From positions 1 to 62,417 of the IMG/VR virus record IMGVR_UViG_3300023110_000035: 62,417 nucleotides of DNA; one strand, written 5' to 3'. Made by a program: the position numbers and the translations under genes. Each line of letters begins with the position of its first letter. Within the stretch, counting starts at the first letter, position 1. The notes under the pieces are model-generated. The model was not told the DNA's origin. It worked only from the letters and a program-made list of their open reading frames with translations, and did not search any database. This DNA is from a virus. Positions 1,771 through 27,000 of this stretch are shown here, in pieces.

Positions 1771-2172
1771 TTATTTCTGATTAAATTCTATAACCTCAAA
1801 GATACGAGTCTGAATACGTTTCGTACCCTCAGTATTTGTAAGTATTATTGAATTTCTAAATTTTTGCCAGTCTATTACAAATGTCTTATCTAATACACCA
1901 CCATTTTCTTCTCTCACTAATTGGTTTAATGCGTTAATGGTGTATAAAGTATTTGATTCTTTTTTTCTGTGTATTAGTATTGTATCTTCTAAAGGTTGTG
2001 GTGGTTTGAACTCCGTATTTATATTATAGGTAACGTAAAGTTCATCTAAGTTTGACTTATTTTGTAAGATATAGATATAGTTATACACTATCACATAAGT
2101 CTCTCTGATATCCTGCAGAGTCTTTTGTAACCCATCCTTTGAAGTAAATGTACACAATAATTGTGTTTTCAT
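1771..2172 (-). CDS. Conserved hypothetical protein (133 aa)
   Basis: Complete 133-residue ORF, ATG at 2172. It has an N-terminal LLCTFTSKDG strand and helix, a Tyr-rich segment (IVYNYIYIL) and a TYNINTEF motif. I recall similar small proteins of unknown function in T4-like phages but cannot name a family with confidence. It is the first gene of a likely transcript (133-aa, amidase, SGQI protein) because a TATTTATA element lies 28 nt upstream and the two following genes are closely packed. No membrane segment or metal site is visible. Confidence 0.6.
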   Translation of the reverse strand: MKTQLLCTFTSKDGLQKTLQDIRETYVIVYNYIYILQNKSNLDELYVTYNINTEFKPPQPLEDTILIHRKKESNTLYTINALNQLVREENGGVLDKTFVIDWQKFRNSIILTNTEGTKRIQTRIFEVIEFNQK

Positions 2173-2230: not shown

Positions 2231-4336
2231 TTATATATCAATCTCTTTACCTGACTTATTATCTACAGCAACTCCATCATCATTTAAATCAATATCAGCT
2301 GGTTCACCATCACCAGTGAATGATAATTGACAACCACCACCAGTTCTACCAGCAGTTCTTTTAGTTCTAAATGTTATTGAATAATCATTTGGATTGTTAG
2401 TACCATTATCAGTAACAAACTTAGGGTCTCCATTTTCATCATAATATTGTTTATTATGTTCCAATTGAGTTAATGTTTGATTTGTTCTGATATTATTTGC
2501 TATCTCAATTGCAGATAACAAACTCTCTACTTTTACACCTGCCTTTTGGACAAGGTTACTAACATTATTTTCACCAATTAATGCAGCTGCATGTTCTTTG
2601 GTGATAATAGAACCTAACTCTTCTTTATATTTATCTTCAATTTCGGATAATTTTTTACCAAATAATTTCCAATATTCAGTCTTATCTGCTGGATTTAAAT
2701 CGGCTACTTCTCTTTTAATTCTATCAACCTCATCCATATAATTGGCTACGATAGTTGATATCTTAGAAGTTTCCTCTTCACTAAAAACTTCACCCAATCC
2801 AATCTCATTTAATGTATTATTAATAAAGTTAGTAGTCTTTTCTTTGGTTTGTTCATTAGATTCACCTCTAATCAAATCATCATTTATAAGTAACGTATAA
2901 CCATCTTGTCCTAAATACATTCCTTGATTATTTTGTTTACTTTTATCTTGGTGTAATTCACAAATTGTTTTTGAGTTAGCTGGACATCCATATGTTCTAC
3001 CTTCCTTACCCCATTTACAACTTACTAAAGAAACTCTTTCTAACATACCACCTTTAATTTTATCACCTGCTGGGAAATTTCCTGCTGATGGTAGGTACAC
3101 CTCTTCACCATTTGCCAATTCTTGTTCATATAAGTTGTTTTCGGCTAATTGTTTTAATATAGCATTTGCAACATCAGCATCTGCTTTATGTAAATCAACC
3201 ATTAACTTATTATAAGAATCAGCTATTGCTTGTGCAGCTTCAGGTGATGGTATTTTTACATTTTTTAATATATCATCCATTCGTTTCTTATGGGATTCCA
3301 AACCAGTTAATACACCTTCATCAACTGTATTATTTTTTACCTGCTCTTTTGCAAAATCAATAGTATTTTGTAAAGCGGGATTATTAATACTTTGTGCTAA
3401 GTAATCTTTTGAATAATCACTGGATGGCATTTTAACATTTCCATCTTCATCTTTTAATCCAAATATTCCATGCAATGATGGTCTAATTTTTTTAAGAACT
3501 GGATGTGATTCGAAATATTCAGATACCCTTACATCATCGGATGGTTTTATGATATTTTCATTTCCTAAATCAGGTTTTGCTGCTGTTGTAAAACCTTGCT
3601 TTACACTTTTAGCATCGAATGTTTTTAATTCAACTAAAGCCGATACCCTAGCAACTAAATCTTTTGATTTTGCTGTTCCAGCATCTCCACTAATTATTTT
3701 ACGATTTCCACCTAATTTATTAAAGTATGCCTTTTTTCTATTTTCATTTGTAGAAAATCCAGCATTATCAACTAACCATTGTGCAGCTTCTCTTTTTTCT
3801 TCTTCAGATTTACTATCATCGTAAATAATATTTATTTTTTTCAATGATTCCTTAATAACTTCCTTTTGAGTATCATTCAAATTATTTATTCGTTGTTCTA
3901 CTCTTTTTTCAAAATCATTAGTTATTTTTTTATTTTCTGGAGATATTTGTGAAGTACTATCATCCTTATTTTTTTCTAAATCAGGTGCTTCATATCCACT
4001 ATCTTTGGAGAACATACTCTTTTTATTTACTTTGGTAGTATCATCCTGCTTATCATCTTTTGTATGAGTACCAGCTTTTATCGCAGCATCTCTATTTTCT
4101 TCAGAATCAAAATCAACAACTTGTCCACTTTTTTTACTTACAGCATAAAATTTTTCACCATCAGCTTCAAATAAGTTACTGAATAATTCGCCTTTGATTT
4201 CCCACAATCCCATCTCATCCAATACTTCAGATAAAATAGTAAGGTGTTCTGATTTTTTAAGGTCTACAATACCTTGTTTCGTTCTATACGAAACTTCCGT
4301 TAATAAATCGTTTATAAACTGGTTAAAATAATTCAT
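2231..4336 (-). CDS. Large hypothetical virion-associated protein (701 aa)
   Basis: 701 residues. The N-terminal part (about 1-45) has a helix-rich LTEVSYRTKQGIVDL / HLTILSEVLDEM motif. Residues about 60-95 look like a short strand-turn domain (FYAVSKKSGQVVDFDSE...KAGTH) that I associate with T4-like phage proteins of unknown role. A long charged helical middle follows. Around residues 420-460 there is a Cys/His cluster (SCKWGKEGRTYGCPANSKTICELH) that could bind zinc or a cluster. The C-terminus is basic and then acidic (FRTKRTAGRTGGGCQLSF, then DIDLNDDG). A good AGGAAG Shine-Dalgarno lies 10 nt before the ATG, and a TATTTATA element lies 21 nt upstream. I do not assign a function. Its size and late-type promoter suggest a structural or packaged protein. 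Confidence 0.6.
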   Translation of the reverse strand: MNYFNQFINDLLTEVSYRTKQGIVDLKKSEHLTILSEVLDEMGLWEIKGELFSNLFEADGEKFYAVSKKSGQVVDFDSEENRDAAIKAGTHTKDDKQDDTTKVNKKSMFSKDSGYEAPDLEKNKDDSTSQISPENKKITNDFEKRVEQRINNLNDTQKEVIKESLKKINIIYDDSKSEEEKREAAQWLVDNAGFSTNENRKKAYFNKLGGNRKIISGDAGTAKSKDLVARVSALVELKTFDAKSVKQGFTTAAKPDLGNENIIKPSDDVRVSEYFESHPVLKKIRPSLHGIFGLKDEDGNVKMPSSDYSKDYLAQSINNPALQNTIDFAKEQVKNNTVDEGVLTGLESHKKRMDDILKNVKIPSPEAAQAIADSYNKLMVDLHKADADVANAILKQLAENNLYEQELANGEEVYLPSAGNFPAGDKIKGGMLERVSLVSCKWGKEGRTYGCPANSKTICELHQDKSKQNNQGMYLGQDGYTLLINDDLIRGESNEQTKEKTTNFINNTLNEIGLGEVFSEEETSKISTIVANYMDEVDRIKREVADLNPADKTEYWKLFGKKLSEIEDKYKEELGSIITKEHAAALIGENNVSNLVQKAGVKVESLLSAIEIANNIRTNQTLTQLEHNKQYYDENGDPKFVTDNGTNNPNDYSITFRTKRTAGRTGGGCQLSFTGDGEPADIDLNDDGVAVDNKSGKEIDI

Positions 4337-4365: not shown

Positions 4366-5649
4366 TTAAAGTTTTGAGTAATCCGTTCCCCAACTAGCTT
4401 TTATAGGAAAACCATTACTCTCTACTATTTCTTTCAATTTAAGAGCATGTTCTTTAGGAGTATCTAACGGAAAAGAAAATAGGAATGAATCATAAGTATA
4501 TAAGGTCAACTCAATGTCGGTTTGTTGAATAAACTCCAACACTTTTTGGATTGTTTTCATATTCAACTCAGTTTCAGTTGCTTGTAATAAATAGTTGAAT
4601 ACTTTTTGAGGATTTGAATCTTCTATCGATGAGAGAGGTATATTTCGATTGTAAGTCGATACATAACCCATTTCCGATGCCTTACTCCACATTACATCGA
4701 TGTACTCTCTAACCTTCTTATAATAAGGAATAGAATCAAACTCTTCGGGTATCCCACCATAAAGGAGTTGGAAAGTAATTCCTTTGGATTCATCATAAGG
4801 AACTCCATATTGGTCCGCTAACCATTGGTGAACGGAAGTATTGGGTAAATCGTAATCAATCAACTTACCTATGATTCGGGGGTGATAGGCATCATAATCC
4901 ATTTGTAAGAATATGTGCCCATCTTTGGGAATAAATACTTCTCTCGTTCCATCCTTTTTATTTAAAGCAGAGAAGTTGATTCCCCCAAATCGGTTGGAAG
5001 GACGGGATGTAATGGTATATGGGTTGTATTCGGTATATACGATATTATTATGTAAATGTTTAGAAGCTTGTGGATATCTATCAAAAAATTTTTCCCCTTC
5101 GACCCGAACACCATATCGTTCAATCTGAGATAAAAGAGGAATCATCGTATCATCAATCCAACTTTTAGGAGATAAATCGGGAGGAGGAATAGTACTACTT
5201 ATATTATCAACAAATGATTTTAAGTACTCTCCCCACTTCATCAAAGGTGCTATCTTTCCTAAACCATCTCTTATACCCATTCGGGTATAATGTGATATAA
5301 ATGGTTGATTTTGTACCTCATCGGGTATAGTTTGATTCTTTTCAAAGAAGTAATAGTTGGATATATCAAAAATATTTTGTATATTTGTACCAGTTTGTAA
5401 TAATCCTTTCTTATTCCATACCCATTTTGGTTGTGTAGATTTAGAAAGGTCTAAGTGATGGGATTTACCATCAATATGATTATATATGAGAATAAAGTCA
5501 GTTTTTCCCACTCTTATGAATAAGAAAGCAAGTTCATTGTTCATTGGATGTTTATCCAAATCAGACCATATAGGAATTACAATTGAGGGATTATTTTCCC
5601 ACATTTGTATAAAATTCTCCTTCTCTTTATTAGATTCTACTACAATCAT
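4366..5649 (-). CDS. Family-A DNA polymerase-like protein (427 aa), atypical active site
   Basis: The C-terminal half has the three motifs of a PolA-type palm and fingers. A TSRPSNRFGGINFSALN segment (214-230) leads into motif A with D251 (LQMDYDAYHPRII). Motif B is SKGITFQLLYGG (K289, F293, Y297), and motif C is LYTYDSFLF (D387). A QATETE segment (356-361) matches the conserved Q-containing helix. Three usual residues differ: the position of Klenow E710 is H256, that of R754 is Y285, and the HDE triad of motif C is Y-D-S. The N-terminal 150 residues resemble a reduced 3'-5' exonuclease fold (IPIWSDLDKHP) without a visible D-x-E triad. At 427 residues it is much shorter than full PolA. It sits alone between tail genes and has its own possible Bacteroidetes-type promoter. 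It may be a specialised or inactive polymerase; family membership is firm, activity is not. Confidence 0.8.
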   Translation of the reverse strand: MIVVESNKEKENFIQMWENNPSIVIPIWSDLDKHPMNNELAFLFIRVGKTDFILIYNHIDGKSHHLDLSKSTQPKWVWNKKGLLQTGTNIQNIFDISNYYFFEKNQTIPDEVQNQPFISHYTRMGIRDGLGKIAPLMKWGEYLKSFVDNISSTIPPPDLSPKSWIDDTMIPLLSQIERYGVRVEGEKFFDRYPQASKHLHNNIVYTEYNPYTITSRPSNRFGGINFSALNKKDGTREVFIPKDGHIFLQMDYDAYHPRIIGKLIDYDLPNTSVHQWLADQYGVPYDESKGITFQLLYGGIPEEFDSIPYYKKVREYIDVMWSKASEMGYVSTYNRNIPLSSIEDSNPQKVFNYLLQATETELNMKTIQKVLEFIQQTDIELTLYTYDSFLFSFPLDTPKEHALKLKEIVESNGFPIKASWGTDYSKL

Positions 5650-5653
5650 CTAA

Positions 5654-5685
5654 CAAATATAAGAAAAATATTTGTAATATCCAAA
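5654..5685 (-). promoter_or_regulatory. Bacteroidetes-type promoter candidate before the polymerase-like gene
   Basis: On the gene strand TTTG (5685-5682) is followed by a 20-nt spacer and TATATTTG (5661-5654). This matches the Bacteroidetes sigma-A consensus TTTG / TAnnTTTG at its usual spacing. It lies directly between the stop of the 117-aa gene and the ATG at 5649, so transcription would begin at or very near the start codon. A chance match in AT-rich DNA remains possible. Confidence 0.4.
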
Positions 5686-6039
5686 TTATTTTTTATGAAA
5701 TTGTAAAAGGTTAGGTAAGTAAAGTTGGATTTTAGGAATCGTTTGAGATGCAATCCTTACCGATGCTGAGTTTGATTTTTTAACATCATCAACATCACCT
5801 ATAATTCTCCAATCTAAAGAAGTTATATTGTAAAAAGAATTCTGAGATAGTTTAGCTGTAGATTTTTTTCTTATCTCATAAATTACAGAGTTTATATCAT
5901 TAGCTTTCTGAACAAAGTATCTAACAATGTATCCTCGTTTATAATCTATATCAGTTGGGGATGGAATATGAGGTACTATTTTAATTTGATTAAAATCCTT
6001 TGGTAAATCTACTATTTTATTATATCTATCTAAACTCAT
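5686..6039 (-). CDS. Hypothetical tail-cluster protein (117 aa)
   Basis: 117 residues, ATG at 6039, starting 2 nt after the hub gene stops, so it is the last gene of the tape measure-to-hub operon. The sequence suggests alternating strands (KIVPHIPSPTDIDYKRGYIVRYF) and a helix, without Cys or membrane segments. The segment DYKRGYIVRYFVQKAND and the closing LPNLLQFHKK recall small proteins that follow baseplate genes in T4-like phages, but I cannot name the family. A baseplate accessory or assembly role is inferred from position only. Confidence 0.55.
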   Translation of the reverse strand: MSLDRYNKIVDLPKDFNQIKIVPHIPSPTDIDYKRGYIVRYFVQKANDINSVIYEIRKKSTAKLSQNSFYNITSLDWRIIGDVDDVKKSNSASVRIASQTIPKIQLYLPNLLQFHKK

Positions 6040-6041
6040 AA

Positions 6042-8255
6042 TTATTTATTATTTCTATATCCACCAGTTACTTCAGTTGTCCACATCATACCATCTAAAG
6101 TATGTTTAACACTTAACACTTGAAAAAATCCATTATTGTATATGGATGGAATCCCATTTACTTTAAACATATCACCTCGCCTTATACCACTCACACCATG
6201 AATTTTGAAACTAAAATTAATCGGCATTAATGGAGTAGCGGATGATGTTTTTTCATCATGCCCACTTTTAAGTGCACTAAATATAGTCGAATCTTTATAT
6301 GCACCTAAATAGCATAAATCATAAAGGTCTACACCATCTACTGAAGTTTTATCACTTATTTCAACTTTTGGATAAAATCTAGCTTTACCCATCATAATAG
6401 CTAAATTAGCTTCTGCTATATCTGCCTTATCTTTTTCAGTTGTATTATCATCATCCTTTTTATTGGTTTCTTTTCTTTTTAATTTTACCGCTAATTGGTC
6501 ACTAAGAGCTTCATCTTGTGTAAAAAGTGATATCTTTTTAGAATCTGAATTCAAATCTGCTCCTAATTTAGAACCTATTATCTGATTCATTTTATTCCCA
6601 CTAATATCCAAATCCAAAGATGCATCTATAAACACAGAATCAGCACCAATCATTTCAAATGTATATGTTGGAGTTTGTTTTCCATTAGTTATTAGATTCA
6701 TTTCAACTATTTTTAGCTTACTTACCGATTTATCATCAACGATAACATCCGATTCTTTTATTTGAAAATCCCACATACCATTTACAGCTGATGACATTCC
6801 ATTTAAAATTTGATACAATGCATCTTTTATATAAAATTGCTTAGTATCCAATACACCTTTAAAAAAATCAAAGTTAACATACAAATCTTTTAAGTATCCC
6901 CATTCATTGGATGATTTAAAAATCTTTTTATCAGGACTCGTATAATCGTTTGGATTTGGAAACTTGATTCTATCCAGTGGTGAATTATTTACTGTACCCG
7001 CCTCTCTTATTTGACTTACTGTTGGTAAATCGGAACTATTGGATGTAATCGCAGATAAATTAAATTTAGGAGATTGTGGGTTTGGTATAAATAACTTATC
7101 AGGTTCAGTACTATATATTTTTTCAAAAGCTGTACAAGCGGTATCTTTATAATCGATTTCAAACGTTACCTCAGTACCATCAGGCAATTCATAACCAGAA
7201 ACACCTATTTCATATATAATATCCATCATAGCATCAAATCGTATGAATCTCTCTTCTGCAGTTATTTTAGTTCCTGCAGGGAATTTTACAGCTTTACCAT
7301 CAATAGTCACCTTACCAGCTTTTACTTCCCATCCAACCAAAGGTAGTTTAAATCCATCAGAAGCATCGTTTATTTCTTCAATTACCTCATCATCAAAATT
7401 AATCAATTTAGTATCATCTGCTGCAAATTTACCTCTCAACCCCTTTACTGCTACTGTTTGTCTTGTTTGTGGTAAATCATTGAACATTTTCATAAATCGT
7501 TCATCACCTAAAGTACTATCTGCGGTATTTATGTAATTTAAACCAAACACTTTTGCGCTTGGAAGTTTTTTTTCTTCATTTAGTTTTTGGTCACCAGTTT
7601 CACTACTCAATAAATAAGTTGGTAATTCGGTATATCCCGTACAATTTACATTTATTGTCCATTTATCACCATCTAATGAAACACCACCACCAGTTGTAAA
7701 TCCTAAATAGTTATCATATTCACCAACAGTATTTTGCCTAACAACATCTCTATTTGATGCATTTTGATATTTAGATATCTCCGATGCTTTTAGTGGAGTT
7801 AATCCACTTACACCAGATGAAGTATTCCAACCCCATTCTAAAAATATACTCATACCAGGTTCTAAAAAATATCTGGTTAATGTTTCCATTTGTTCTTTGG
7901 TAAAACAGGTTATAGAAAAATTTGCTTTTCTACTTAAATTACCAGCACCCTCATCTACTTCTAATGAAGTTACAATTGGTGAAGGTCTATATCCCTGCCC
8001 AACAGATGGATTTACATCAGCTCCTTCCCAAGTTGTACCAATTCTACCTGCTTGTGTAGATGAACCATATGTTCTACCCGCTGCTCTAAATAAATTATTA
8101 TTTGGGTTTGAATCTAAAACCAATCCTGCACCACCACCAGAAACTAATCTTACAAATGGATTAAGTTTAGATATTAATTGTGGATTTCCTACTCTTTTCT
8201 TTAAAGTACTCTTAACAAAATCCTGAATATTTGTAAAATTCGGAAATGAAGCCAT
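6042..8255 (-). CDS. Baseplate hub-like protein (gpD/gp27 position, 737 aa)
   Basis: Likely central baseplate hub on which the tail tube is built. The N-terminal part has FLEPGMSIFLEWGWNTSSG (about 130-148), a motif I know from large baseplate proteins of T4-like marine phages. The C-terminal part (about 680-737) reads GIRRGDMFKVNGIPSIYNNG, then FQVLSVKHTLDGMMWTTEV, the strand pattern of the gpD/gp27 hub fold. The gene directly follows the LysM protein, the same order (X then D) as in P2-like tails. Residues about 560-610 form a charged, Lys-rich insertion. At 737 residues it is much longer than T4 gp27 (391), so it may include further domains; no lysozyme-like domain is visible. The start is ATG at 8255, 5 nt after the previous stop. 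Confidence 0.65.
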   Translation of the reverse strand: MASFPNFTNIQDFVKSTLKKRVGNPQLISKLNPFVRLVSGGGAGLVLDSNPNNNLFRAAGRTYGSSTQAGRIGTTWEGADVNPSVGQGYRPSPIVTSLEVDEGAGNLSRKANFSITCFTKEQMETLTRYFLEPGMSIFLEWGWNTSSGVSGLTPLKASEISKYQNASNRDVVRQNTVGEYDNYLGFTTGGGVSLDGDKWTINVNCTGYTELPTYLLSSETGDQKLNEEKKLPSAKVFGLNYINTADSTLGDERFMKMFNDLPQTRQTVAVKGLRGKFAADDTKLINFDDEVIEEINDASDGFKLPLVGWEVKAGKVTIDGKAVKFPAGTKITAEERFIRFDAMMDIIYEIGVSGYELPDGTEVTFEIDYKDTACTAFEKIYSTEPDKLFIPNPQSPKFNLSAITSNSSDLPTVSQIREAGTVNNSPLDRIKFPNPNDYTSPDKKIFKSSNEWGYLKDLYVNFDFFKGVLDTKQFYIKDALYQILNGMSSAVNGMWDFQIKESDVIVDDKSVSKLKIVEMNLITNGKQTPTYTFEMIGADSVFIDASLDLDISGNKMNQIIGSKLGADLNSDSKKISLFTQDEALSDQLAVKLKRKETNKKDDDNTTEKDKADIAEANLAIMMGKARFYPKVEISDKTSVDGVDLYDLCYLGAYKDSTIFSALKSGHDEKTSSATPLMPINFSFKIHGVSGIRRGDMFKVNGIPSIYNNGFFQVLSVKHTLDGMMWTTEVTGGYRNNK

Positions 8256-8260
8256 ATAAC

Positions 8261-8551
8261 TTATTGTTTAAATTGATTGTTTATCTCTATAAAGTTTTGT
8301 GGGATTCTTAAAATTGTTCCATCTTTTAAACCAAATGGTGCATTGTGTATATTATTAGCAGATGCTATAATCCACCAAAGGGATGCATCTCCATAATATT
8401 GATAAGCAAGTGTATCTAATCTATCACCAGTTTCAGATGCTACATATATATCATTATCCTTCAATGGAATTTCAGGATAAATTTTAGAACGATATACTGT
8501 TCTTCCATCATCTAACTTTTTGGTTTTATTATTTTGATATCTACTTGCCAT
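8261..8551 (-). CDS. LysM-domain baseplate protein (gpX/gp53-like, 96 aa)
   Basis: A compact LysM-type protein. Residues 37-90 read DIYVASETGDRLDTLAYQYY, then GDASLWWIIASANNI and LKDGTILRIPQ, the usual two-strand, two-helix LysM pattern with the W-W-I-I-A-x-A-N signature. In contractile tails, short LysM proteins (P2 gpX, T4 gp53, Afp7-type) sit between the tube cap and the hub and bind sheath or wedge. It lies between the 577-aa cap-like protein and the hub, 6 and 5 nt away, in one operon. The N-terminal 35 residues (DGRTVYRSKIYPEIP) are the strand that usually precedes the domain in gp53-like proteins. Confidence 0.85.
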   Translation of the reverse strand: MASRYQNNKTKKLDDGRTVYRSKIYPEIPLKDNDIYVASETGDRLDTLAYQYYGDASLWWIIASANNIHNAPFGLKDGTILRIPQNFIEINNQFKQ

Positions 8552-8557
8552 AATTTA

Positions 8558-10291
8558 TTAAGTTGTTGGGTCAAATGTATAAAGTTTTCTATTACCATCT
8601 TCAGTACCAGTTTCTTTTCTATTTTCAACAAATTTAAGAGTAATGGCAACATCAACTATTGTTGGTAATCTATAACCCTTCATATCTATTTCAGTACTAG
8701 ATGGGTTTTGAGCTATACCATTTGGTGGTCCATATAAAGCATTTGTTGTAGTAGTAACAACATTGTTTAAATGGGATTGTTCTTTATCAGCTACTTGCCA
8801 AGGTGTATTATCATCAATAGTATATGAAAGAGATTCTATAAATGATGCCTTTTTATTATACATATCACCCAATGTAAACATTATAAGCGGTGATTTTATC
8901 GCTGAGTTACCATAATAATCAGCTGGATATGTTAATCCAGATAAGAAGTTAAGTTTTTCCCAAGCTTTTTTATGTTCTAATACATTTAAAGAATATACTT
9001 TAAAGTTAAAACTAACACTTCTTTCAATACCATCATATGTATAAAAATTAAATGGATTTCCAATAAACTTTTGTCCACTCCAAGAAGGAGAAAAGGTTTC
9101 ACTTAGTCCACTAATCGTTGCTCTAAAATTTGCTGAACGTAATGCTCCACTAACTGTACCTAATGAGGTAAATTTAAGGGTTACGAAATCTAACTTATCT
9201 AACTCCTCATCATCTTCACCATTATATACACCACTAGCATTTACACTATCACCAATAGTGTACATACCTCTTTTTGTTTCTAAGAAGTTTTCCTTAGATA
9301 CACTTTTATAGTTTTCATTTTTTGTTATATTAGAAAATTTAGATGCTCTTTCTGGTTCTTCAGTAAATTTAATAGTTGGTACATTTTCAACAACTTGTTT
9401 AGTCGATAAATCGTTTACATCATCACCCTCTTTAATAATCGTTTTACTATATCGGTTACCCTTTTTATCCTCCGTTAATCGTTGTGCTCCGGTAGTTGGT
9501 TCTAACGAACCATAGTTAAATCCATACTTACCCCAATTTTCTAAACTTTTATCAGTATATAAAGTTGGGAATTCGTTAGATGGAGTTGGTGTAATTCCAG
9601 TTGGTATCCTACCTGTTGCTAATCCCAATGAAGTACCACCCCTACTACCAAATATTTTTTTACCTAACTCTTGCTTACCTGCTTTAATTGCACCACCCAC
9701 TAAATTTCTACCAATAGCATCGGGTGTACCTCCACCAGCATTTTCACCAATAAATCCTAAAAGTTTTCCTGCAGCTGTTCCTTCAGCTGATTTTAAAACC
9801 TTTTGTAATTGACTCATTCTTTTTTGAGTTTCACCAAGTTTTTCAGCTTCTAATCCACTTACCACAAATGTTGGAATTGCTTTGGTTGGTAATCCTAATG
9901 CACTTTTTACACTTGATGCCGCACTTCCTATCTTAGCCATCAATCCACTAGCACCAGTTACTTCACCAGATGTTTCTGCTTTCATTTTGGATATAGAATC
10001 GGTTGTTCTTAATGTGATTCTTGGTGTATCTGAACCATATATCATAGGAATAGAACCGAATCTAATAACTCTTAAACCAGTGAGTTCTTCCTCAACCAAA
10101 GATTCATCAGTTCTTACACCTAAAACTTTTCTAGCACCTCTAGCCAACAACATACCAGTTATATTCACCAATGGATTTGATGAGGATATTCTTATATCCT
10201 TACTATTTCTAATAGCATAAGCTTCTTCAGCGGTTTTTCCACCTTGAGATGGTAATTGTTTACTTTTAAATAATTCTTCTAATGTTGGCAT
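8558..10291 (-). CDS. Baseplate / tail-tube initiator-like protein (577 aa)
   Basis: Probably the protein that closes or initiates the tail tube at the baseplate (position of T4 gp48/gp54, P2 gpU, Mu gpN). The C-terminal third (about 355-577) has a strand-rich pattern typical of this group: LDFVTLKFTSLG, then LSETFSPSWSGQKFIG, YTYDGIERSVSFNFKVYSLN, PLIMFTLGDMY and SYTIDDNTPWQV, ending LPTIVDVAITLKFVENR. The N-terminal half is lower in complexity, with a short coiled segment (EKLGETQKRMSQLQKVLKSA) and glycine-rich stretches. The spacing of 6 nt on both sides puts it in the tape-measure operon. Function is inferred from the C-terminal pattern and from gene order. Confidence 0.6.
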   Translation of the reverse strand: MPTLEELFKSKQLPSQGGKTAEEAYAIRNSKDIRISSSNPLVNITGMLLARGARKVLGVRTDESLVEEELTGLRVIRFGSIPMIYGSDTPRITLRTTDSISKMKAETSGEVTGASGLMAKIGSAASSVKSALGLPTKAIPTFVVSGLEAEKLGETQKRMSQLQKVLKSAEGTAAGKLLGFIGENAGGGTPDAIGRNLVGGAIKAGKQELGKKIFGSRGGTSLGLATGRIPTGITPTPSNEFPTLYTDKSLENWGKYGFNYGSLEPTTGAQRLTEDKKGNRYSKTIIKEGDDVNDLSTKQVVENVPTIKFTEEPERASKFSNITKNENYKSVSKENFLETKRGMYTIGDSVNASGVYNGEDDEELDKLDFVTLKFTSLGTVSGALRSANFRATISGLSETFSPSWSGQKFIGNPFNFYTYDGIERSVSFNFKVYSLNVLEHKKAWEKLNFLSGLTYPADYYGNSAIKSPLIMFTLGDMYNKKASFIESLSYTIDDNTPWQVADKEQSHLNNVVTTTTNALYGPPNGIAQNPSSTEIDMKGYRLPTIVDVAITLKFVENRKETGTEDGNRKLYTFDPTT

Positions 10292-14587: not shown

Positions 14588-16897
14588 TTATGCTGAGAAC
14601 GATGCTCCCGTTGGTAAGATGTTGAAATCAATTACAATGAATTCAGCGGTCTTAGCAGGTTGTAGGAAAATCTGTCCAGCTAAAATGTTTCTATCAACCA
14701 CATCAGGTGTGTTGTTAGTCTCATCCATAACTACTTTAAATGCGTACAACCCTTGTCTTTGTTGAATACCTTCTAAGTAAGGTTGTACTGTGTTGATAAA
14801 TCTACCTCTAGTCGATGCCGTATTTTGTTCGAATACTAAGAATCGAGATGTAGATGCCACAAATTTCTTAACATTGATTAATAATCTTCTAACATTGATT
14901 CTATCCAATGCCGATGCTCTATCTTGCAATGTTTTCTGTCCGAATGCCACAATACCTTGTCCAGGGAATGAAGCGATTGGGTTTACTTTGTTTTCATATA
15001 GAGTATCTCTTTCAGAATGTGTTAATCTATTCAATACCGATGCTGCTCCTACGATACCTCCTCTATTTAAACCAGCAGGTGCGAACCATTCAGCTGCAAT
15101 AGCGTCATTAGCTGCATATACAGCAGGTAATAGTACTGAAGGTGGTACACTTACTAATTTGTTAGTATTTGAATCTACTGTCTTAACCCAAGGATAGTAA
15201 GTTCCAACATAGTTAGAATCTACAGCGTTAGCTTGTGTTGTTACATCTGAGATAGTTGAACTAGCATCAGCAAAATCTGCGATGTAAAATGCATCTTGTC
15301 TAGCTTCAACAATATCAATTGCTTTACTAACAACTCCAGGGTGTAATGTTCTTACAACACCAGGCGTTACTAACATATTGATATCCCATTCATCAGCGTT
15401 TGAAATTGCGTTCAAACCTTTTGAGTATGATAAATAACCACCAGCCGAAGTTGATGATAAATCAAGTCCTTGCGAATTTCCAGCACTCATATCAGAACCT
15501 AATTTGATATCAGTTGCAGGAGATTGTCCATCAAATCCACCTTGGAATGCTACTGAGAATTGTCTTTTCACCATATCAGATGAATCAGAACCACTCATTA
15601 CATAAGAAAGTTGAGAATCAAATCCAAAGTCAACGTTTGAACCAACTCCTACACTTTCAGGTAGAGGTTTGATATAATTGTTGTTGTCATATTTTATACC
15701 AGTTGTTTCGAAATCAAAACCAGCGTAGTATGTTGGGTTACCAGCAGTATTCACTACTGAACCAGTTTGATAAACAACAGCAGGTACGATAGTTTCAGTA
15801 TCTGCTAATATTGGATTAGAGTAAGCTCCGTGTCCGAATGGTGCAGCTGATACAGGATATGAACCTTGTGCTGCTACTTGTACTCTAATATATTTTGAAT
15901 TATTTACCCAATCACCCCACTCAGTAATCTTACCATTTGAATCAATAGTTAAGTATCTATCACCGATTCTTCTAGCGATAAAGTTTGGTGATGCTGGGTC
16001 TAAGTTTACATTACTAAATGTTTCTAATACAACAGGTCTTTTATCCGTATCAGAGAATGAACGAATTGTTACTGTAAATACTGAATAATCAGTTCCTCCA
16101 TCTTCACCGGCAGCTTTCACATTGGAGATTGAAATTTTAAATCTGGAGTTTTCGTTTGTACCATATCCTAATGTATGGAATTTAAATAAATCACTTCTTA
16201 CACCTGAAATTAATTGTGATTTAACAAATGGTGTAGATGCCCAACTTGCTTCATATGTAAAGTTTTGAGTTGGTAATACTTCAGCTACAACAGCTTCTCC
16301 ATTTGCAACTTCTAAATTGATATCATCTACTGCATCTTTAAAGTAAGTGTAAACATATGCATCCTTCGAACCTAATGGGTCTGAACCAAATACATCAGTT
16401 ACATCATTACCAGCTGATGATAATAGTGAAGAAGATACTTCACCAATACCACTACCACTTACTACAAATGAACCAGATGTAGTTAATGATGGGGATACAG
16501 TAAAAGGACCAAATCCTACTTCATCATCACCATTTACACTACTATGTAATGTTGAGATAAGTTTTTTACTTCCATCCGAACCACTAGCAATCAAACCAAT
16601 AGGTGTAGCTTGAGTATAACCAGCATCAGCGCCAGTTTTACCTAAAACTCTTACGATTGTTGCTGTTCCAGCTTCTCTAAGATAGTTTTGTACTGCGTAC
16701 TCCGTATAATAAGTTCCATCAGGTGTTCCGAACTTATCTTCAAATTCTGATTGTGTTCTTACAATCGTAGGAACGAATGCTGGTCCTTGTTTGAAAGGTC
16801 CTACAAATGCTGCTCCTATTTCTCCTACCCCTTGAGCTAAAAAAGAGAGGTCATTTTCTCTCGTAAATACTCCGGGTGATACTATTCTTTCTGCCAT
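14588..16897 (-). CDS. Tail sheath protein (gp18-like)
   Basis: 769 residues (T4 gp18 has 659). It forms the contractile outer sheath. The N-terminus has the sheath signature SPGVFTRENDLSF and AFVGPFKQGPAFVPTIVRTQ. The C-terminal third, the most conserved part of sheaths, has RRLLINVKKFVASTSRFLVF, then LEGIQQRQGLYAFKVVMDE and closes with TAEFIVIDFNILPTGASF, the segment that links to neighbouring subunits. The middle (about 130-450) is Ser/Gly-rich and is the variable outer domain. GGAG lies 10 nt before the ATG. The 98-base upstream gap contains two late-type elements. Confidence 0.93.
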   Translation of the reverse strand: MAERIVSPGVFTRENDLSFLAQGVGEIGAAFVGPFKQGPAFVPTIVRTQSEFEDKFGTPDGTYYTEYAVQNYLREAGTATIVRVLGKTGADAGYTQATPIGLIASGSDGSKKLISTLHSSVNGDDEVGFGPFTVSPSLTTSGSFVVSGSGIGEVSSSLLSSAGNDVTDVFGSDPLGSKDAYVYTYFKDAVDDINLEVANGEAVVAEVLPTQNFTYEASWASTPFVKSQLISGVRSDLFKFHTLGYGTNENSRFKISISNVKAAGEDGGTDYSVFTVTIRSFSDTDKRPVVLETFSNVNLDPASPNFIARRIGDRYLTIDSNGKITEWGDWVNNSKYIRVQVAAQGSYPVSAAPFGHGAYSNPILADTETIVPAVVYQTGSVVNTAGNPTYYAGFDFETTGIKYDNNNYIKPLPESVGVGSNVDFGFDSQLSYVMSGSDSSDMVKRQFSVAFQGGFDGQSPATDIKLGSDMSAGNSQGLDLSSTSAGGYLSYSKGLNAISNADEWDINMLVTPGVVRTLHPGVVSKAIDIVEARQDAFYIADFADASSTISDVTTQANAVDSNYVGTYYPWVKTVDSNTNKLVSVPPSVLLPAVYAANDAIAAEWFAPAGLNRGGIVGAASVLNRLTHSERDTLYENKVNPIASFPGQGIVAFGQKTLQDRASALDRINVRRLLINVKKFVASTSRFLVFEQNTASTRGRFINTVQPYLEGIQQRQGLYAFKVVMDETNNTPDVVDRNILAGQIFLQPAKTAEFIVIDFNILPTGASFSA

Positions 16898-16995: not shown

Positions 16996-17487
16996 TTAAA
17001 TTGTACAAAGTGAAGGTGATGTGTACCAGCTATTCCCCGTCCAATATCTAACAGTAAATCCTTCACCATAAGGTTGGTCCGAATACCAACCAGGTACAGC
17101 GAAAACATTAAAATTTGTTCCTCTGTAAACAGATACAGTCCACCAATTCCTATCAGGGTCCTCCCAAAATATTCTTGCTTGGTCATTCCCAGCACAAGAT
17201 TCGAGTGGACCAGCTTGACCACTACTTCCCCTATTTGAATATCCAGCCATCAATTCGCCGTATCTTCCAGGTCCAACAGGCCCACCACCAGCATCATGGT
17301 CATATCCATACCATTCACTAAATGCAGCTGGATTTGCAGATAATGGTCTTGCACGAGAATTTGTATTAATAGTACCATATCCACCATTCTCAGCAGTATC
17401 AATTGAAAATGCACCTGAACTAATAGTTCTATTTAGTTCGGTTATAAGTGCAGATGCCGCTATTTGGCCTGATGATGGTATTGCCAT
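16996..17487 (-). CDS. SGQI-type small tail/fibre protein (163 aa)
   Basis: Starts with SSGQIAASALITELNR, continues YGTINTNSRARPLSANPA and FSEWYGYDHDA, the same domain as the 182-aa protein at 284-832. A Gly-rich linker (GGGPVGPGRYGELMAGYSNR) is followed by a C-terminal beta domain with two Cys (LESCAGNDQARIFWEDPDRN, and the closing PSLCTI). It lies just downstream of the 173-aa gene (18 nt) in a transcript from the element at 18050. Attachment to fibres or surface decoration is inferred from the domain and from its location beside the fibre genes. Confidence 0.65.
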   Translation of the reverse strand: MAIPSSGQIAASALITELNRTISSGAFSIDTAENGGYGTINTNSRARPLSANPAAFSEWYGYDHDAGGGPVGPGRYGELMAGYSNRGSSGQAGPLESCAGNDQARIFWEDPDRNWWTVSVYRGTNFNVFAVPGWYSDQPYGEGFTVRYWTGNSWYTSPSLCTI

Positions 17488-18077: not shown

Positions 18078-21000
18078 TTAATTTTTATTAATTAACTGAT
18101 TTACCAATTCTTTTAATTCGTTTATTTCTTTTTGTTGATTTTCAATTACACTTTCCAATTCTTTTACTTTAGAATTGTTCCAAGTTACAATCTTATTCTG
18201 GTCTTTTATACCTTCAATCACCAATGGAACTAATCTATCGTACTTAATTGTTAAGTAATCTTCACCTGATTTAGAGTATAGGTTTCCATTTTCATCATAA
18301 TCAGAATCAAATGGTGCTAAGTGAACTACTTCGGGTACAACATCTCTAACCTGTTGTGCCGATAAACCTACTTGTAATCCTTCTTCGGTAAATCCAACTT
18401 TTTTTGCTAACTCATTAGTTTCATAGTAGAAACCATCTAATGAAAGGATTTTAGAAAGTGCGTTTCCGATTTTACCTTTCTTATCTTTTAATCTTTCATC
18501 TGAGTAGTATGCGATAATATCTTGTGTACATCTAAATACTCGAGTAGCGTAGATTTGTGAGTTGTTTACTTCAAATCTTTCTGAACCACCAGTTACAACT
18601 CTGAATTGGTCTGATGCGTGGAATTGAATATAAGTGTTAGTATCACCTCTATGTCTTAACCAAGAAGCCATCTCCAATGTATTGAACCTAGAAGTAGATG
18701 CTGGGTCTGCGTAGTATGATGTTGAGTTACTATCATAATAAATCGAACCATATACTCTATTATAGAAGTATGCAATTGCGTTGCCATTTTCTCTACCAAT
18801 ATATGCTACATTCTGAGAATTACCAGAACCATTATCATGTATTCTTAGATAAGAGTTAGTATTATTATTGTTACTATCTAATCTAATATTAACATCATTA
18901 TATGAGTTAATAGACATGTTATCGGAGAATCCACCGGTATTAGAAGTAGATGCGATACCATGATTAGAATATGAATTGTAATTCGCATTCCAGTCAAAGG
19001 ACATGTATGCTATTCTATGTAAAGATGATGAATATGTACCATACCCCTGTGCATATCCCCTACTACTACTTGAACCAAAGTATGATGTATTGGTAACTGT
19101 TGCGTTAAATCTAGAAGTAGAGTTAAAGTTACCATAGTATCCAGTATCGTGGTCATAGTAGATTCCCGCTCTTACTTGGTCTCTTACATAGATACCATAA
19201 GATTGAGTACTCATTTGGTCTGTACCATTGTGGTATAATGATAACGAACCATTTCTCCGAGCATACAACATCCACTCATTATCAATATCATTGTAGATAC
19301 CACATTGGTTGTTATCTGCTGACATGAACACATATCTAGCATTGATTGAGTATCCTTCCCAACCACCTTTACCACTACCATGTGTTTGAACAGTACCATA
19401 GTTACCATCTACACCACCTTGACCAGCTCTGAATGTTACTTCGTTGTTATCTCTTAATTCTACATAAGAATCCCGTGCTACTCTTACTGCCCATTGTCCA
19501 TCAGAATCTAAAATACCAATATTATTAGAATCATCTGCGTAGAAATATCCTCTAATGGTACTTTGGAAACCATCTCTAATTCTAATACCATGCGGGTTAC
19601 CACTTCTTGCGATTGTCCAATATTCTCCAGATGAATAGAAGTGATTTCCAGAACTTTGGTTATATAAACCTTCGTTTTGGTTGTAGTTTCTGAACCAATC
19701 ATCAGCGTAGAAGTTCCACGCTCTTGCAACGTTCATACGAGATGTACTATCACCATTCCAATAGTAAGATGTATTGTTTCTATCGTAGATGATATTTGGT
19801 CTAATATCGTTGAAGTAGGATACATTATCAAAATGACCATAATAAGAAGTGTTATTCCTATCATAGTAGATGTTTGCCCTCATATCGTTGAAGTACGATG
19901 TAGAAGCAGGGTCTGCGTAATATCCTGTATTGTTTTGGTCATAGTAACGAGGAGAGTAAGTTACATCATAGTTGTACATCCAACCATCTACTCTCAAGTT
20001 CAAGTTACCACTATCCGAACTCATTCTGAATTCATCAGTACCAGTTCCGATAAAGTCAATACCAGTTCTACTATCCCAATGTGTATTAGTTCTGAATCTT
20101 ACAGTACCACCACCATATGCAGGCATTACAATAGAAGATGCATTATTGAACCACAACCCACTTCCATTATTTACTCTGTTACCAGAAAGTTGTTCGATAT
20201 TTGGTTCGTTACCATTGATTTCATATACACCAGGTCCCCACCATTTTAATTGTGAGTTAGCATCGGTTGAGTAGTATAAGTAAGTTCTATGAGTTTGGTT
20301 TCTCGTACCAGTGTATCTCATTTTGTAATCAGTAGATGTTGCTATCTTCTGACCTGTATCTAATCTCCAAACACCACCCAAACCACTATTTGAAGTTCGA
20401 GGGTGATTGTTTGCGTAAACAAATCCAATTGCCAAACACCAAACTCCTTGTGGGAGTGAACCGATACCAAATGCGTGGAAGTATGGGTTACCATTTGCCG
20501 AACCACTCATATTAAGTGTTTCACCACCACTACAACCAAAGTAGTAAGTACCTGAAGTTTGTGAAGATTCTCTCTTCACATATGTTACCCACATATATGA
20601 TTTGTTACCATCTAAGTTTGATACAGTTTTGTTCCAACCACCATCAGAGTTAGAACCAGCATCATTACCTAATGCTCTCCAAACAATAGCTGGTCTACCC
20701 CAAGGGTCATAATCTTGTATGATTGAGTTTTCATATGATGCTCCATTGTTTGAGAATGTTCCACCCAATGCAGCTGCACCATTACCAGTTCCACTTACTA
20801 CCCAATCTTCAGCGGTTGCTAAGTTAGTAAATGTACCAACGTGGTGGTTACGAGAGTTAATTGCTTTCTGTCCACCTACTCTTAGGTTGTAAGTAACTTC
20901 AACATCTTGAGAACTTCTACCAACTGAGAATAACATTGTTGATAAATCTTCATTGTTGTACATTCTGATACCACCATAACCAGGTTGTGCACCCATACGG

Positions 21001-24000
21001 ATACCAGTATGCCATCTTAAATCTAATTTAGAGTAATTACCACCATAGTTTTCTCTATTTGTACCAATGTAGTAGTTACCATCTGCATCAGAGTTACCAC
21101 CACCAAAATGTAATCTCGTAGATGATACTGAGTTATATGCGTTGTAATCAAATCTACCACCAATAACAACTCTATTGATAAATTCAGCTGCGTACATACG
21201 AGAAGTAGAACCACCATGCCAATAATATCCAGTACTTCCTCTATCATAAAGAATGTTTACTCTAACATCGTTCATATACGATGTAGAAGCAAAATCACCA
21301 TAATAAGAACCATTGTTTCTATCATAGAATCTATCAGCGTAGTGATATCCAACAGTCTCTCCACCATTTGACCGAGTCTTTATCTTCTCAGAACCATCAT
21401 AGTACATTGATGTTTGTACATTGGTTGTTCTAACTGCCCATTGTCCATCTCTATTTAATAGACCGAAGTTAGCACCAGCCCCATCTGAATAAACATATCC
21501 AGCTCTTGTACCACCACCAGTATAGAATTTGATACCACCAGTATTTGCATCACCAAACTTATAGTTTAGGTAAGAATCATTACCTTCATCATAAAATCTA
21601 ACATTTGCGTTAAAGTGTAATTGGTTTACATAGTTGATATCATAGTTGTTCATATGGAAATGACGATACCAATAAACATATCCATTGTTATTGGTAATGT
21701 ATCTCATCATTAAGGTATCTGAGTTTGCATTTCTCATATACCAAGAGAAAGTGTATCCACTATCCCAATACCAATGTGCACCATATGAAATAGCATGATA
21801 ACCACCCTCACCAAAGTATAAGTGAGAATCACCACTATCAGTAGCACCCACATATAACATATCGTTGATGTGAGTTCTATCATCGTTACCATTACCTATT
21901 CGGTTTCGGTTACCATTTACATATAAGTTGTTTTGTACAGTAGTTGTACCATTATTTACTTCAAATCTTTCACCACCACCAGTTACAACTCTCCATTGGT
22001 CTGCTGCGTGGAATTGGATATAAGTGTTAGTATCTCCATCGTGGTAAATCCGGTCATTTAAGAAGATATCTTCTACATCGTAGATTCTACCATTATCCAT
22101 ATATAAATCAGTACGGATAATAACCGAACCATTTACATCTAATCGTTGTGAAGCAGTTGTGTGTCCAATACCCACATTACCACCACTTGCACCATTGATG
22201 TAGGTGTTTTGACCTGAACTATATTGTAGTTGTAATGGCCTTGCTGGCGAATAAACTTGGTCGTAGTTAATCCTTAAACCATTTGTAATACCAGAAGTAT
22301 TAAACTCAACCCAATCTAATCGAGATGAAGAACCTTGGAATCTAAGGATATCTGCCGGTCCATCATATTCAATTTTAGGTCCACCATATCCATATTGATG
22401 GAATTGAATTTGGGGTTTACGAGAGTTTGTACCTGTATTACCACTTTGAATCTGAATTGCAGTTGATGCTACAATGGATGGTTTATGAAATTGTCCACTA
22501 TCACCAACCCAGTTAGCAGTACCATCATTGTAGTAAGATGAGTAATCGTTAGCGTAGTAATCATATTCATCAGTATATCCACCTTTTGCAAATATCTGTC
22601 CATCAACTGCTAATAGTGAAGCCGCCCGAGCATTACCACTATGCCATTTACCTAATCTCCAACCACTATTTTCATCGTTATTGTTTGATACCGCAAATGT
22701 AATACCTCTATCGTAACTAGCATCAGAATACATAGTTGTAATAAGTAAATCATGTGCTCTAGAGGCATCTGCTGCTAAACCTGATGCTTGTGATTTTGTA
22801 TTTGCTGTACCAGTAAACCAAGTACCATTACCAGCACCAATCCAGAACATTTGATGTCCTTGAAAGTGTAAGTTTGTTTGTGCATTCTGTCCAACTGAAT
22901 CCCAACTTGATGAAGTACCTAAAATGTGATATTTTCCATCGAAATCTAAAGTACCACTACCATATGCATTTCCACTAATAGTAACACCATCACTTCTAGT
23001 TTCAAATTTCATTGAACCATTATGGTATAACTCAACTTCAGCGTTTCTTCTGAAGATTGCCATCCACTCATTATCTACATCATTGTAGATACCAGCAGTA
23101 CTACTATGGTCAGACATGAATACATATCTACCATTAATTGAGTATCCACCCCAACCACTTCTAGTTGTTCTAGTTTCAACTGTACCATAGTTACCACTTA
23201 CAGTATCTCTACCAATTCTAAATTCTTCAGTTGTACCATCGGTATAGAACTGAGTACCATAATCATTTTGGTGTCTGATTGCCCAACTTCCACCAGTATC
23301 TAAAATACCAATTTGATTAGAACTATTTGCGTAGAAAGAACCTCTTTCGGTACTTCCATTAGTTTTCATTCTAATTCTTATAGAAGATGCTGAATCTCTA
23401 GCAGTCCAAGATGCATCTGCATCTGAAACCCAATGTGCTCCAGTTGCTTGGTTATATAAACCTTCACCACTTTGGTTGTTTCTAAACCAACCATTGTTAT
23501 AAATTTCGTTAAATGTTACACTATCCGTTGTACGAACATATTGGTTCATATTTGCAGCGTATGGATAGTTTGTAGAATCTAAGATTCTTCTCCAACCAGA
23601 ATAGTTATCGTTATTCCATTGAGTTTTGTATGCTAAATCACCAGTATGTGCTGCGTATAATTGGAATGAATGGTTTGCACCTCTATAACTTATAACACCA
23701 CCATATGTGTAAACTCCAGTTGGGTGATTTGAGAATCCAGAAGCCAAATTATTGACCTGAATATAGTTCATTTCACCAGCGGAATTTGTCCAATCTTGGA
23801 AGTTACCACCACTTACCGAACCACCATATGTGAATATATTGTATGCCCCTACTGAAGTACTTTGTCTATAAAAGTTAGTAGCGTATAAATCTCCAACATT
23901 TTGATTTACACCATAAATCGGAGATACTCTCATTGTTACCGTTACCTTCTTAGAAGAAGATGGTTCGGTTGAGTTTGTTATAGATGTTACTCTATTTCTA

Positions 24001-27000
24001 TCATCACCACCAGCATCTCTTACATGAACTGCGAATGAATTCCAATAAGATACTCTTGGCCACCAGAATGCAAGTGTTCCACCATTATCAAACACTTTCA
24101 TTGTAGTAAATCCAGATTTACCTAAATGTAAACCTGAATGATTAATGATAGTATTGTTGTATAGGTAACCTTGTACTATAAAATCAAATGGTGAATCAGA
24201 AGAATAACTTTTACCAGTTGCTTCTAATACAAACGATGCCCCATTTTGAGTATTTGAAGTAATATCAGTTTGTACTAATGTTCCAGATGTAAAATCAGAA
24301 CCTGAATGTTTTCTTGTAGTAACATAGTTTCCATTCAATAAAAGATTATTACCAGCGATAGTTACAGCACTGTTATTAACTTCTAATCTTTCTGTACCAC
24401 CAGTTACAACTCTCCATTGGTCTGCTGCGTGGAATTGAATATAAGTATTTGAATCTCCTTCATGAATGATTTGGTCTACACCAACTATATCATTATTGTT
24501 CATATCAAGGGTTCCACCTGATATACTAAATCCATTACTTACATAACTTCTTTCCCAAGATGAAATTAATGCTCTTACTGTACCATCATTTCTTCTCAAT
24601 CTCATATCAGGGTAACCATTACTACCTACCCAGAATCCAGATGAGTTGTCATTACCAACACCTTGTGTTACAAATATAAATGACCATGTACTATTTCTTA
24701 CTTCTCTAAGAGAAATAGCGTTATCATTTATATTATTTAAATCCATATCAATAGCATGGCTATTGATTACTAAATTAGTAGCTAATGTGGTGTTACTATT
24801 GTTTACTTCTAATCGTTCACCACCACCAGTTACAACTCTCCATTGGTCTCCAGAGTGGAATTGCATGTAAGTATTCGTATCACCTTGGCTGTAAATAGCG
24901 TTATCTAAATAAATGTTTTCAACAGTATTTAAATTACCATTTCCTAAATTTAATCCAGCAAATGTTGGTGAATCCGTTGTACGAACATCTTGATTCATTC
25001 TGAACGCATATGGAATATTTCCATCATGTCCTATTGTTCTCCAATTTTGATATGTTCCAGCTTGCAATCTTCTAAATCTGAAATCATCTGAGAAGAAACT
25101 AATTGCTAATGTTGCACTATAATAAGTTGATGCGTTACCATGTCCTAATCTCATCCCATACCACCAATTGGTATCAGGATTAAGAGTTGAGTTATTGAGT
25201 GCGTTCCAATATTGGAAACTATCTGATTCAGTACCAGTATTTGATGATAATCTTGTTGCTGCATCAATAGAACCATTTATAGTACCACTTACAGTCAATC
25301 CATTTAAGTTCGAAGTTCCTGCAGGATTTACATAATAATTATCATCATTCGAATCATAGTAAATTGGTGCATACATTGCTACACCAGCATCAACTATCTT
25401 AGCTGCATCAATCGAACCTAAATAAAGAATCGAACTTGCTGCGTTCTTATCACCATAGAAAGTGAATGTACCACCATGACTCTGTCCTCTGAATGATGGA
25501 TTACCATCACCAACATTGATATAAACATCAGCACCACTACCATCAAAGTATCCGAAGTTTGTAGTGTTTACATTCGTAGAATTTACTCTTGAGAAGGTTA
25601 CAGTATCTGAAGTACGAACATTTTGATTCATTGCGTACAACTCATTATCACCCTGTCCAGTATTTAATGCAGTTGTATTTACAACACCACTAAATGTTGC
25701 TTCACCTGATTTGTTAATTGTTAATAATGATTGAGCTGAGTATTCAGATTGTCCACCAGATGCTTGATATCCAATTTGGTAATTTGCGAAACCACCACTA
25801 TATCTTAAACCAGCAAACCATTCTTGTCCACTATAAGATACATCAGTAAAGAAAGTACCAATTGCTCTACCTTCATAACCACTCATATTGATTACAGCAG
25901 TTGCTGCAGGTGAACCAGCAGTATTAGTTGCTATAATATTTAGAGAAGTTCCAGTGTTTCCACTATCACCAACTGTTAAATTATCAAATGTAGGTGAATC
26001 AGTTGTACGAACATTCTGATTCATATTATAAGCATATGGTTGAGATACACTATCTAATATTTGTCTCCAACTTCCCCAAGTAGTGTTACCAGTACCCATT
26101 CTACTCCATAATCTACCATTTGCAGTATATGCAATCTGAATTGGATATCCACCACTTAAATCAGTACCACCACCATAACTTCTCCAAGTCATTTGGCCGT
26201 TGTAAGAACCACCATCACTTAATCCATTGGTTGCGTTACTTTTGAAATCAAAGTAAACACCGTTTTGACGAGATGAAGGAGTATCATTTGTAGAACGAGT
26301 ATCATTTGAATCTACCGCTTCTGCTCTATCAGCAGTTCCGGTTAAATTACCAACAAATGATGCATTTACCTGATTAAATGTTACATTATCAGAGGTACGA
26401 ACATTTTGGTTCATTAGGTAAACCTCAGTAGCACCCTGCCCAGTATCAATAGTACCACCAATCGTTACATTACCAGACATAGTCCAATTACCAGATGAAT
26501 CCGTATAGTCATCATCGGTTACAAATCGTAATCTATCTGGATTAGTACCTTCATCCATTCGAATCATTTGCCTACCACCAGCTACCAACTGAAGGTCATC
26601 TCCACCTACGAACCGAATGTATGTATTTGTATCACCACCATGTCTAATATAAGAATCTACATCTAAAATTGGTGTCCTTAACCGAGTTTCAGCGTACCAA
26701 TTATCTTCTGATTCATCCCAATAAAAACTTCTAGTATCCGAATCACCTCTTAAAACTTCAATACCAGCATCTTCAGAAGGAGTACCTGATGTAAAGTTTG
26801 AATTAAGAGTTATAATATTATCTGCTAACTGAATGGTTTCGGTATTCACAATTGTTTGAGTACCTGTTACATTCAGATTACCTGTTATGTTTAGGGTTGT
26901 ACCATCAAAAGTAAGGTTTGATTCAACAGTTGCGTTTGGTGCTGAACCATTTAGTGTGATTAAGCCATTATCGGTGTTACCAGTTAAGGATAGAGCTCCA

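Follow-up and report, generated by a model that had tools for sequence, protein, structure and literature searches.

Yutin et al. 2024 (PMC11348598) described divPolA1 in 14 phages, including Flavobacterium phage immuto, as an extra family-A DNA polymerase (PolA) with a truncated thumb, an inactivated exonuclease and conserved palm residues, followed downstream by replication genes. Another extra phage PolA derivative, divPolA2 (barbaviruses; AUR84708), likewise lacks the thumb and the exonuclease. Among cellular enzymes, the actinobacterial PolA2/APEX polymerases are accessory PolAs with a dead exonuclease domain that have been proposed to be low-fidelity (PMC12926913). Their likeness to divPolA1 is by analogy only, and they are not known to have a truncated thumb. 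Follow-up literature on divPolA1 was limited to the original paper and its preprint in our search. The main text of PMC11348598 nowhere mentions ribonucleotides, steric gating or baseplates, so the points made below on the sugar gate and the promoter appear to be new.

The locus considered here lies in a 62,417-nt stretch of viral DNA (hereafter the window; IMG/VR record IMGVR_UViG_3300023110_000035), and its features are collected in Table 1. A sequence-only reading had proposed a PolA-like protein of 427 aa, leaving the strand unstated. The frame lies on the minus strand, and its identity is confirmed by Pfam DNA_pol_A (E=1.4e-7; 31.2 bits, slightly below the cut-off of 34.3 bits), PHROG_17 DNA polymerase (E=3e-14) and alignment of the family profile to E. 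coli Klenow (hhalign E=3.1e-11, covering the polymerase part; hmmsearch E=3.4e-9). A profile scan of IMG/VR found relatives at at least 571 loci, and the gene is under purifying selection (dN/dS 0.10-0.20), which together indicate that the signal is real and not due to chance.

Table 1. Features of the polymerase locus (window coordinates)
Feature	Coordinates	Strand	Basis
133-aa companion gene (HRKKxxN.YTxNxLN motif)	1771..2172	-	near polymerase in ~197 loci
701-aa protein, starts 29 nt past polymerase	2231..4336	-	homologue in 109-116 loci
divPolA1-type family-A polymerase, 427 aa, ATG start	4366..5649	-	profile matches, Klenow alignment, residue conservation
Motif C YTYDS (aa 384-388), Y386-D387 at H881-D882	4486..4500	-	alignment, conservation
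Motif B YDESKGITFQLLYG (aa 285-298), Y285 at R754; K289, F293, Y297 kept	4756..4797	-	alignment, conservation
Motif A DYDAYHPR (aa 251-258), catalytic D251, H256 at Klenow E710	4876..4899	-	alignment, conservation
Vestigial thumb (aa 178-213)	5011..5118	-	E177..T214 spacing, profile alignment
Degenerate 3'-5' exonuclease-like domain (aa 1-150)	5200..5649	-	by-eye alignment, overall fold match
Bacteroidota-type promoter TTTG-N20-TATATTTG	5654..5685	-	sequence pattern, conservation in relatives
Tail/baseplate genes upstream of polymerase: 5686-6039; 6042-8255 (baseplate hub-like); 8261-8551 (wedge subunit-like); 8558-10291	5686..10291	-	syntenic

Far from being a lone oddity, the protein belongs to divPolA1 as judged from profile comparison: the window family aligns over its full length with gp001 of immuto, one of the genomes named for divPolA1 (hhalign E=3e-120, 429 aligned columns; annotated as 'DNA polymerase family A'). 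The palm catalytic residues are conserved and the thumb is truncated, while relatives have a second, regular polymerase in the genome and replication genes downstream. The set of features that marks an ordinary PolA (DYSQIE with its Glu gate, a full thumb and an exonuclease) is not found in the 427-aa protein. Membership of divPolA2 was rejected, as there is no detectable profile similarity to AUR84708 (hhalign probability 0.25%); nor does the window family match, at profile level, the large regular PolA that immuto also encodes.

Relatives in one scan were 48-95% identical to the window protein (66 loci). The best GenBank phage matches were LR756508 (484 kb), Microcystis phage Mel-JY01 and immuto. 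A single-sequence scan of viral contigs found no relatives of the LR756508 version, and all five relatives from bacterial assemblies were on metagenome-assembled contigs. In a tree, the window protein falls in a well-supported clade of 31, apart from the immuto clade, and it shares 28% identity with immuto gp001. In one relative (L059:8001-9138) the frame is broken by 37 stops and just a 72-bit match is left; the close relative L058 differs.

The alignment to Klenow, for which E. coli Pol I residue numbers were separately checked, upholds the earlier assignment of motifs A, B and C and the retention of both catalytic aspartates, D251 and D387 (Klenow D705 and D882). Other paired positions are H256 with E710, Y285 with R754, K289 with K758, F293 with F762, Y297 with Y766, Y386 with H881 and S388 with E883. 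In ordinary Pol I, motif A reads DYSQIE and E710 is the sugar-gate position, and R754 touches the incoming triphosphate. Among 81 family sequences, non-redundant at 85% identity, D251, H256, K289, F293, Y297, G298, Q356, E359, T360, Y384, Y386, D387, R216 and N225 are invariant, with D251, K289, F293, Y297 and D387 remaining so down to about 26% identity. Position 285 is Tyr in 63 of the 81, and position 253 is acidic (Asp or Glu) in 68. The E710 position keeps its Glu in the ordinary PolAs compared (E. coli Pol I, immuto gp199 and that of mycobacteriophage Zolita) and, by eye, in divPolA2.

The palm and fingers core, the frame of motifs A, B and C and the exonuclease-like N-terminal fold are shared with Pol I. 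The thumb span, from the IER glutamate (E177) to the TGR/TSR threonine (T214), measures 37 aa here and 21-41 aa across the family, compared with 125 in E. coli Pol I, and the profile alignment has a gap that sets 193-204 against Klenow 232-330. The fingers span is 55 aa against 78. An AlphaFold2 model (pLDDT 95.6) has Klenow as its best solved-structure match in Foldseek (TM 0.67-0.71), spanning the whole fragment. Judged by eye and from this overall fold match, the first 150 aa resemble an exonuclease domain that has degenerated, in agreement with the description of divPolA1 in PMC11348598. The domain lies outside the profile alignment, and by eye its catalytic positions seem replaced (FAFDTETD in Pol I, VIPIWSDL here); H34, H58 and D95 are conserved within it. 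The suggestion that the exonuclease domain is reduced is thus close to the mark: a domain of this kind seems to be retained in degenerate form, and it is the thumb, together with some of the fingers, that has truly been removed.

The gene stands between two functional blocks. In 189 of 191 loci with at least 4 kb of upstream sequence, the genes immediately upstream are tail genes on the polymerase's own strand. Downstream, the order is best seen in a 252-kb relative (G001) whose polymerase is 95% identical to that of the window: a 698-aa gene, the 133-aa gene, an amidase, a gp32-type SSB, UvsX, FEN, DnaB and ribonucleotide reductase, and further on two Mom-like genes, PolB with an exonuclease domain, a sliding clamp and a clamp loader. 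SSB, UvsX/RecA, FEN and DnaB occur in that order in G001, immuto and Mel-JY01 (where the SSB is an unnamed gene in the corresponding position). At least one of the four is downstream in 54 of 74 loci with at least 7.9 kb of downstream sequence; in the other 20 none was detected within the stretch. The sequence-only reading had placed the polymerase far from any replication gene, which is true of the window contig only because it ends just before the point where its 95%-identical relative has the SSB gene.

The window contig is partial, and the main replicase was found outside it, in relatives: of 13 large relatives from IMG/VR, 9 have a PolB frame, the 95%-identical one among them, and Mel-JY01 has one as well; these frames are 840-855 aa long, one being truncated at its contig end. 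Since large relatives also encode this family-B replicase together with clamp, clamp loader and primase, the polymerase is, judging from close relatives, an extra one beside a full replicase. An ordinary replication gene moved by rearrangement was rejected, as relatives have this PolB replicase with clamp and loader and the order of tail genes and polymerase is common to the family, which does not fit a recent relocation. Immuto shares the second polymerase and the downstream replication genes, but its replicase is a PolA whereas that of the window group is PolB. The window group also has the 701-aa gene, the 133-aa gene and the amidase between polymerase and SSB, unlike immuto, and an exact Bacteroidota promoter abutting the polymerase ATG. 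The 133-aa companion has an invariant HRKKxxN..YTxNxLN motif and a confident predicted fold (pLDDT 93.9). Searches of PHROGs, Pfam, PDB sequences and folds gave no useful match for it, and it is possibly a partner of the polymerase.

This promoter argues against the view that the gene sits inside the tail operon. In Bacteroidota, the sigma-ABfr consensus is TTTG / TAnnTTTG, with the second element at -12 to -5 (PMC6847099). The sequence TTTG-N20-TATATTTG follows immediately on the stop codon of the preceding gene, and only 4 nt separate its end from the polymerase ATG. A single match is not significant by itself, as the pattern occurs twice in the window against 1.7 expected. Within 100 nt of the start codon, however, exact TTTG-N18-22-TAnnTTTG precedes the polymerase in 23 of 31 members of the window clade and 10 of 48 others (shuffle mean about 0.1). 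It occurs in none of 163 regions upstream of three tail gene families (0/52, 0/59 and 0/52). It precedes the 133-aa gene in 1 of 69 cases and the 701-aa gene in 0 of 29. In G001, it is also found before the SSB, DnaB and clamp genes, which appear to have longer leaders than the polymerase. Outside the window clade, 9 of 48 members, chiefly of the immuto group, have a terminator-like hairpin ahead of the polymerase (shuffle mean 0.5). Within the clade just 4 of 31 have one between the tail genes and the polymerase, so that transcription may run on from the tail genes into it.

With a promoter that is conserved, absent before tail genes and common to replication genes, and with the hairpin outside the window clade, the polymerase gene most likely heads its own transcription unit. 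It looks as if it is expressed with the DNA-copying genes rather than the adjoining tail genes. By the published spacing, the predicted transcription start is the A of the ATG, which would give a leaderless mRNA; the spacing of 4-7 nt between promoter and ATG is kept in the window clade (window 5646-5685, minus strand). Other promoter types were less telling. The window has 18 T4-type late promoters TATAAATA where 11.6 would be expected at random, which is uninformative in AT-rich DNA, and E. coli sigma70-type promoters are fewer than chance, as would be expected if the host belongs to Bacteroidota. In the relatives L128, L130, L052, L135, L031 and L129, what by eye looks like a tRNA gene end (GGTTCGAATCCC...) lies directly before the polymerase promoter.

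Family membership, domain loss, invariance of the catalytic residues, the conserved promoter sequence, synteny and co-occurrence with PolB together suggest that divPolA1 is probably an active accessory polymerase with its own promoter, which fills short gaps distributively and without proofreading beside the PolB replicase. Transcription from its host-type promoter at the border of the tail and replication genes, presumably early, would place it in line with SSB, UvsX, FEN and DnaB. The invariant catalytic residues point to an active enzyme, and the loss of the thumb and of proofreading to short, distributive synthesis, while bulk synthesis would fall to PolB. Because relatives have a complete PolB replisome and also their own primase, it would be neither the main replicase nor a primase; the latter role is made less likely by the DnaG primase found in the relatives G001, G002 and G003 and in immuto. 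Based on the neighbouring FEN, UvsX, SSB and DnaB genes, gap filling may take place in the maturation of Okazaki fragments on the lagging strand or in recombination repair, with FEN and divPolA1 together standing in for Pol I, the first as 5' nuclease and the second as gap filler. Loss of R754 and of most of the thumb may nevertheless leave the enzyme weakly active or dependent on a partner. The 20 loci in which none of SSB, UvsX, FEN and DnaB was detected also speak against this reading, as do the unrelated genes that separate the polymerase from SSB in the window group.

The same losses, including that of the exonuclease active site, could also mark a catalytically dead PolA relic that now serves as a DNA-binding or replisome-scaffold protein, much as the earlier suggestion of a non-catalytic DNA binder would have it. 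This is improbable, as D251, K289, F293, Y297 and D387, which serve two-metal catalysis and nucleotide binding and would be needless for a scaffold, are invariant in all 81 relatives. The directly adjoining tail genes, in turn, are what would be expected of a virion or late tail-programme protein that enters the cell with the DNA or helps in assembly. Such a role seems very improbable given a promoter of the class seen at replication genes and absent at tail genes, the hairpins that separate the polymerase from the tail genes in some members outside the window clade, and the replication genes that follow downstream.

A changed substrate choice is a somewhat stronger alternative to gap filling, but still an unlikely one. 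Through H256 and the acidic position 253, the enzyme might accept ribonucleotides or damaged or modified nucleotides, as a translesion polymerase or a mixed primer extender. The invariance of H256, Y384 and Y386 and the prevalence of an acidic residue at 253 are consistent with this, as is the Glu that the compared ordinary PolAs and divPolA2 have where divPolA1 has His. The Mom-type genes of G001 and the 7-deazaguanine genes of immuto would fit modified nucleotides. Nevertheless, a bulky His could still keep out the 2'-OH, and where DnaG is encoded a primase role would be unneeded. In its broadest form, divPolA1 would be a widespread class whose invariant sugar-gate His and thumbless body confer a substrate choice unlike that of any characterised PolA, beside the main replicase, a reading that we regard as unlikely. 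In G001, the two Mom-like DNA modification genes are adjacent (L274:15366-17116; Pfam E=1e-43 and 2e-45) and lie shortly before PolB.

These results extend the known range of divPolA1 from 14 genomes to at least 571 viral loci, and a thumbless second polymerase looks common in large phages of aquatic origin, of which many probably infect Bacteroidota. Three points appear to be new: the invariant sugar-gate His, the conserved promoter of a type that replication genes also have, and the conservation of the 133-aa companion. They give concrete, cheap handles on the purpose of this extra polymerase.

Two further observations concern the rest of the window. Its structural region includes giant minus-strand reading frames of 3781, 4577 and 4695 aa (18078-29423, 31513-45246 and 46167-60254), perhaps tail fibre or adhesin genes. 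In addition, two small minus-strand proteins (284-832 and 16996-17487) look by eye like paralogues (SGQI..., YG.IN..S, WYGY.H), one adjoining the amidase and the other the large tail gene at 14588-16897.
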